Origin: Candidatus Kerfeldbacteria bacterium CG_4_10_14_0_8_um_filter_42_10
GTDB lineage: Bacteria; Patescibacteriota; Patescibacteriia; UM-FILTER-42-10
DNA length: 34,262 nt
Direction of reading: 5' to 3'
Assembly (NCBI GenBank): GCA_002784945.1
Contig: PFMD01000051.1
Span: 1-34,262 of the forward strand
Both the position numbers and the translations under genes were made by a program. Below are positions 2,932-30,529 of the stretch, piece by piece; positions within the stretch are counted from its first letter, which is position 1, and each line of letters begins with the position of its first letter. The notes below the pieces were generated by a model, which had not been told where the DNA came from, did no database searches, and worked only from the letters and a program-made list of their open reading frames with translations.

Positions 2932-3008
2932 TGGTGCGCCCTGCAGGATTCGGACCTGCGACCATCTGCTTAAAAGGCAGTTGCTCTACCAGGCTGAGCT
3001 AAGGGCGC
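2932..3008 (-). tRNA. tRNA-Lys (anticodon UUU), CCA encoded
   Basis: Minus strand GCGCCCT-TA-GCTCAGCCTGGTAGAGC-A-ACTGC-CTTTTAA-GCAG..GCAGG-TCCGAAT-CCTGC-AGGGCGC-A-CCA; 7-bp acceptor stem, complete cloverleaf. Confidence 0.95.
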
Positions 3009-3110
3009 CCGACTGCGCTCCGATTATCATCGGAGCTTCGACGGGCAAGCATATTTAAATCATTAAGCTGCTTGCCTTCCGAAGCTCAAATGGAATTTGA
3101 GCGCAGGGAG
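3009..3110. mobile_element. MITE/REP-like palindromic element flanked by 13-bp direct repeats
   Basis: Outer IR ctgcgctc (3013-3020)/gagcgcag (3099-3106); hairpins gctccgat-tatc-atcggagc (3017-3036) and gctcaaat-gga-atttgagc (3084-3102); inner IR 3033-3050/3070-3087; flanked by gagctaagggcgc at 2996-3008 and 3111-3123. Confidence 0.6.
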
Positions 3111-3143
3111 GAGCTAAGGGCGCAAAATAATGTATGACTTATT

Positions 3144-7951: not shown

Positions 7952-8026
7952 ATTTAAGTTGTCAGTTATTTTGATACTCACAACTAACAACTGGCAATTG
8001 GTAACTTATCCTAAACTCTAACCACT

Positions 8027-8323
8027 ATGTTCGATAAACTTAAACAGATCAAAGATTTAAGAGATCAAGCTAAACAACTCCAAAATCAACTAGGGCAAGA
8101 AACGGTTTCCTCCTCTACCGAAGGGGGTAAAATTAATCTGGTCATGGATGGCAACCAACAAGTAATTGCCCTAGAGATTAATCCCGAACTCCTTAAGCTC
8201 GAGAGTAAAGAAATATTGGAAAAAGGATTAAAAGAAGCCTATAATGATGCCATTAAGAAAGTGCAACGGATTATTGCTCAAAAAATTCAAGGCGGAAATT
8301 TCAATTTGCCTAACATTGGATAG
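8027..8323 (+). CDS. ybaB: YbaB/EbfC-type nucleoid-associated protein
   Basis: 98 aa; MFDKLKQIKDLRDQAKQLQNQL...GNQQVIALEINPELL; directly upstream of recR. Confidence 0.9.
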   Translation: MFDKLKQIKDLRDQAKQLQNQLGQETVSSSTEGGKINLVMDGNQQVIALEINPELLKLESKEILEKGLKEAYNDAIKKVQRIIAQKIQGGNFNLPNIG

Positions 8324-23451: not shown

Positions 23452-23497
23452 ATCCCGCACCTTTGTATTTTTTCCAAAAAATACAAAGGTGCGGGAT
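23452..23497. repeat. Perfect 22-bp inverted repeat, 2-nt loop, in the rplC leader
   Basis: atcccgcacctttgtatttttt-cc-aaaaaatacaaaggtgcgggat. Confidence 0.95.
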
Positions 23498-29005: not shown

Positions 29006-29063
29006 TAGCTTTTTAGCTTCTTAGTTCCGACGCCTTGGTCGGAATTCCGACTTCACGTCGGAA
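29006..29063. repeat. Partial TAGCTT-family copy C plus tandem TTCCGAC/GTCGGAA hairpins
   Basis: tagctttttagcttcttag (19 nt identical to copy A, 6466-6484), then ttccgac-gccttg-gtcggaa (29025-29044) and ttccgac-ttcac-gtcggaa (29045-29063). Confidence 0.75.
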
Positions 29064-30496: not shown

Positions 30497-30529
30497 CCCG
30501 CCATGGCGGGATCTCCCGCCGTTGGCGGG
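30497..30529. repeat. Tandem GC-rich palindromes in the rpmB leader
   Basis: cccgccatggcggg (30497-30510) and cccgccgttggcggg (30515-30529). Confidence 0.85.

Follow-up and report, generated by a model that had tools for sequence, protein, structure and literature searches.

A mobile double-hairpin element targeting tRNA gene starts in Patescibacteria

Why should the first bases of an intact tRNA gene be found a second time, about 100 nucleotides upstream, with a palindromic sequence lying in between? We addressed this question for tRNA-Lys in a window of 34,262 nucleotides, the whole stretch of DNA analysed, corresponding to positions 1 to 34,262 of contig PFMD01000051.1 of Candidatus Kerfeldbacteria bacterium CG_4_10_14_0_8_um_filter_42_10 (assembly GCA_002784945.1). 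A preliminary description had noted two copies of a 13-nt tRNA start separated by a 102-bp palindrome, and proposed a non-autonomous palindromic insertion whose target duplication regenerated the tRNA. We could confirm this as a description of the sequence: two exact copies of GCGCCCTTAGCTC lie on the minus strand at 2996-3008 and 3111-3123, with 102 nt between them, next to an intact tRNA-Lys (2932-3008, minus strand; anticodon TTT, CCA encoded; 68.6 bits). When two mismatches were allowed, the 13-mer matched three places in the window against 0.47 expected, and only these two exactly. The leader plus tRNA folds far better than shuffled sequences (-88.1 kcal/mol, z -6.5). A σ70-type promoter, TTGATT-17-TAAAAT, was found by pattern match at 3169-3141 on the minus strand, upstream of the outer repeat, in a stretch conserved at 86% in a congeneric genome (G001; G and C numbers are our handles for genomes and contigs, G000 being the genome of the window), and hence the transcript would carry the element as a 5′ leader. 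Promoter-like -10 boxes upstream of the outer versus the inner copy were counted in 9 of 29 and 4 of 29 cases respectively, which is not decisive.

We next asked if the insert belongs to a family. A DNA search of its own genome with the 102-bp sequence found only itself, and among Rfam families only tRNA matched. A search of 57 relatives with the wider locus revealed a 74% match at a tRNA-Thr of G001, whereas the orthologous tRNA-Lys of G001 carries a different, degenerate 5′ tRNA fragment with an unrelated palindrome, so that a second process that leaves broken tRNA copies also acts at these loci. A short pattern scan of named genomes then gave a tight class with a start-to-start distance of 112-119 nt and conserved sequence, at tRNA-Thr, -Lys, -Phe, -Ile, -Arg and -Glu in Kaiser-, Portnoy-, Nealson-, Harrison-, Yanofsky- and Sungbacteria and others. 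Sixteen members, the window sequence and 15 homologues, align at 72% mean column identity, and this alignment corrects the preliminary description in two respects. First, base 3111, counted there as tRNA nt 13, corresponds to the outermost base of a hairpin and co-varies with its partner across the family (C-G in 7 and U-A in 5 of 16 members), so the true direct repeat is 12 nt (tRNA nt 1-12), with the outer copy, GCGCCCTTAGCT, at 3112-3123 and the inner copy at 2997-3008, and the insert is 103 nt (3009-3111), all on the minus strand. Second, the conserved fold is better supported as two separate, adjacent hairpins than as one long palindrome.

Hairpin I (3075-3111, minus strand; CCTCCCTGCGCTCAAATTCCATTTGAGCTTCGGAAGG) begins directly after the outer 12-mer and is followed by a linker with inverted ends (3045-3074; CAAGCA … TGCTTG). 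Hairpin II (3009-3044; CCGTCGAAGCTCCGATGATAATCGGAGCGCAGTCGG), an inverted relative of hairpin I with covariation at alignment pairs 71-109, 83-98, 84-97 and 86-95, ends at base -1 of the intact tRNA. The insert is bounded by terminal inverted repeats (CTCCCTGCGCTC/GAGCGCAGTCGG), and in the family four of the eight outer pairs never vary in the 16 sequences. On the two-hairpin consensus 97% of cells pair, 36 cells change on both sides, and the covariation score (0.313) exceeds that of shuffles (0.122; 0 of 500 as high). The alternative long hairpin, which the window sequence itself prefers energetically, is much less supported (0.135 against 0.117 in shuffles). Since the shuffles do not preserve relatedness, these values are supportive rather than exact.

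As the relatives are too diverged for DNA search, we built a covariance model (R1) covering only the element, so that the flanks are an independent test. The window element scores 96.7 bits (E 1.4e-22), although it is one of the 16 sequences from which the model was built. In a class sample, 122 of 381 genomes had some match at E 0.01, and in a phylum sample 19 of 380 at E 1e-7; many of the weak matches are other palindromes. Of the 28 distinct loci scoring 60 bits or more in the two searches, 27 have a copy of a tRNA 5′ 12-mer on both sides (9-12 of 12 identical), the exception being contig C43 of genome G541. Some of these loci also contributed to the model (the window, G001:C47, G572:C2 and G523:C8) but most did not, and in a few the tRNA behind the inner repeat is itself broken and an intact tRNA lies 40-150 nt further on. 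The genome of the window has a second tRNA copy, at a tRNA-Thr (G000:C76), although copies in this genome are only about 60-65% alike, and G001 has two tRNA copies. Over all 52 tRNA-type copies collected, the repeat matched 12/12 in 34, 11/12 in 8, 10/12 in 9 and 9/12 in 1. Identity per position was 47-52 of 52 (90-100%) at nt 1-12, but 17-24 of 52 (33-46%) at nt -8 to -1 and 52% at nt 13. Repeat boundaries were fitted within one (left) and two (right) bases, which mildly inflates the match, and copies from the pattern scan are biased towards TAGCT starts, unlike those from the model searches. The repeat nevertheless follows the local tRNA, including starts without that motif: CGCGGGGTGGA at a tRNA-Met, from the model search, and GCCCTATCGTCT at a tRNA-Glu, on a contig fetched for another match.

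Evidence for recent movement came from one genome, G429. Its subfamily A copies, at tRNA-Lys(ttt), tRNA-Arg(cct) and a tRNA-like GGGCCCG locus, are 94-96% identical (100-102 of 106 positions), with a fourth related copy at tRNA-Val(gac), and its subfamily B copies, at tRNA-Ala(ggc) and tRNA-Ile(tat), are identical at 105 of 106 positions. Each copy carries the 12-mer of its own tRNA (12/12 except 10/12 at tRNA-Arg, where elements of two different subfamilies are stacked). Two copies in a row also occur at tRNA-Ile, -Thr and -Glu. These facts are what a mobile element with a 12-bp target duplication predicts, and are hard to obtain by vertical inheritance or local tandem duplication. A second shared repeat of about 100-110 nt, with its own hairpins, follows the 3′ end of several different tRNAs in G429 and in G485, among them tRNA-Lys, -Leu and -Asp.

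Could the element instead be a conserved structured 5′ leader, inherited with the tRNA, that regulates or aids pre-tRNA processing? In the minimum-energy fold the outer 12-mer pairs with the acceptor 3′ strand, 4 kcal/mol better than with the cloverleaf enforced, and might thus compete with nt 1-12 in a functional switch; the fold is, moreover, conserved by covariation. However, the element is patchy across genomes, occurs on different isoacceptors and is near-identical at different tRNAs within a genome, and the 12-mer decays in some copies (9-11 of 12). We therefore regard this explanation as very unlikely.

A more serious alternative is partial tandem duplication of the tRNA 5′ part, with some upstream sequence, followed by insertion of REP-like palindromes into the redundant fragment and decay, given that the tRNA loci of these genomes are unusually disturbed. 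In 284 tRNAs of 12 genomes, 5′ fragments of the same tRNA lie upstream in 52 cases and 3′ fragments downstream in 42, against 8 and 10 in the reverse arrangement (odds ratio 27, p 2e-13), often interrupted by GC-rich palindromes at the D, anticodon and T loops. Fragment ends cluster at nt 12/13 and 34-37, and the starts of 3′ pieces at 34-39 and 55-57. This asymmetry is expected from partial tandem duplications that preserve one intact copy, and does not by itself prove nested insertion. Several loci show duplicated upstream sequence and tRNA nt 14 onwards after the palindrome, and the orthologous tRNA-Lys of G001 is of this type. At a tRNA-Met (GCCAGGG) of G035, four tandem 111-bp units, each with a 13-nt tRNA start, a palindrome and tRNA nt 14-26, precede the intact gene, while in G000 (contig C6, about 8020-8190 of the locus extracted) an intact tRNA-Arg(tcg) lies inside the anticodon arm of another, broken tRNA, framed by a long inverted repeat. 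GC-rich palindromes are spread through these genomes and enriched about 2.8-fold within 300 bp of tRNAs, with others in the window at 30497-30529, 23456-23493 and 29026-29062. By contrast, the class to which our element belongs has no trace of nt 14-76 after the insert beyond short A-G matches, a nearly fixed length (99-107 nt in 50 of 52), hairpins flush with both 12-mers, and 94-99% identical copies at different tRNAs in one genome. Tandem duplication thus fits other loci better than this one, for which it appears unlikely.

Some fragments at tRNAs of the same genus and class are followed by a small GIY-YIG ORF (about 80-100 aa) that starts right behind the 5′ fragment, often near nt 36-46, and ends at or just before an intact copy of the same tRNA (for example, at 1-508 of a locus on G002:C54), in what looks like a homing-type element that carries or rebuilds a tRNA. 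The 103-nt element could be a remnant of a larger tRNA-invading element of this kind, but this is improbable, since those fragments are usually longer (to nt about 35-46) and no member of the 103-nt family contains such an ORF between its repeats.

Altogether, our analyses support the insertion proposed in the preliminary description, with high confidence, as a miniature, non-autonomous mobile element of about 103 bp, without a gene, that inserts specifically at the 5′ end of tRNA genes, even though no insertion-free orthologous site was found and no mobilising enzyme was identified. One boundary lies immediately before nt 1 and the other after nt 12 of the tRNA, and we infer that the 12-nt repeat arises as a target-site duplication from cuts 12 bp apart at nt 0/1 and 12/13. 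Because the duplication restores nt 1-12 in front of nt 13-76, insertion is probably harmless: the old promoter would stay in front and read through the element, and RNase P would free the tRNA from a long structured leader. The restored start would again be a target, which would explain stacking. A 12-bp duplication is not, however, a rule for every relative. Similar but lower-scoring doublets (about 40-58 bits; units of about 90-125 nt) lie, without direct repeats, in what look like variable loops of 16S, 23S and RNase P RNA genes, recognised by eye and not by a family search, leaving open that two mobilisation routes exist; others lie directly after the encoded CCA of tRNAs or in spacers between tRNAs of a cluster.

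The element shares with MITEs a small size, terminal inverted repeats, a target duplication and multiple copies, but differs in its strict tRNA-start target and two internal covarying hairpins, and has no known parent transposon (no autonomous relative was found, though none was specifically searched for). Its anatomy, two inverted palindromic units with a spacer, resembles that of REPINs (PMC3116915), which also have many copies per genome and compensatory changes; REPINs, however, pair the two units with each other and are reported as extragenic, whereas here covariation better supports two separate hairpins and the tRNA copies carry a strict 12-nt repeat, and the element cannot be filed as a REPIN on the present evidence. 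A Y1 (RAYT-type) transposase is a natural suspect for REP-like DNA, and Y1_Tnp hits occurred in 7 of 12 genomes, including G000 (8) and G001 (8). Such genes are present (5-8 each) in six genomes rich in tRNA fragments (G000, G001, G025, G035, G010 and G043) and absent from four with none or one (G014, G015, G026 and G055), with G007 (fragments but no Y1_Tnp) as an exception, but comparison of GIY-YIG and Y1 transposase counts with fragment counts is suggestive only. Moreover, these enzymes act on one strand and probably leave no target duplication, and so do not obviously account for the 12-nt repeat. Dada DNA transposons (PMC3706591) likewise target small RNA genes, including tRNA, with target duplications and tandem insertions, but are eukaryotic and autonomous, have 6-7 bp duplications and lie inside the tRNA, with each family limited to particular RNA genes. 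Casposons (PMC4046053) are prokaryotic elements with terminal inverted repeats and long target duplications, some next to tRNA genes without harming them, but are large, encode Cas1 and PolB, and act at tRNA 3′ ends. The rRNA insertion sequences of CPR bacteria (PMC11270868) occur in structural RNA genes of the same bacterial group, but over half are group-I-intron-like and they often encode homing endonucleases, and tRNA is not mentioned in the main text of that study. In the open-access literature searched, we found no description of an element such as ours. It is possible, though we put this forward only tentatively, that a previously undescribed class of bacterial mobile DNA recognises the 5′ end of tRNA genes as such, by position or structure rather than by one sequence, cuts 12 bp apart at nt 0/1 and 12/13 and thereby colonises essential genes without damage; the exact coincidence with the RNase P cleavage point would then hint at a link with transcription or processing of the tRNA.

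tRNA genes in these small genomes are mostly essential and few in number. An element that inserts into them at a fixed point and repairs the damage by its own target duplication is a neat solution to the main problem of a selfish element, and makes tRNA-start targeting in bacteria testable. It also means that a number of pre-tRNAs in Patescibacteria would carry about 115 nt of structured leader, and that tRNA annotation and promoter calls there need care.
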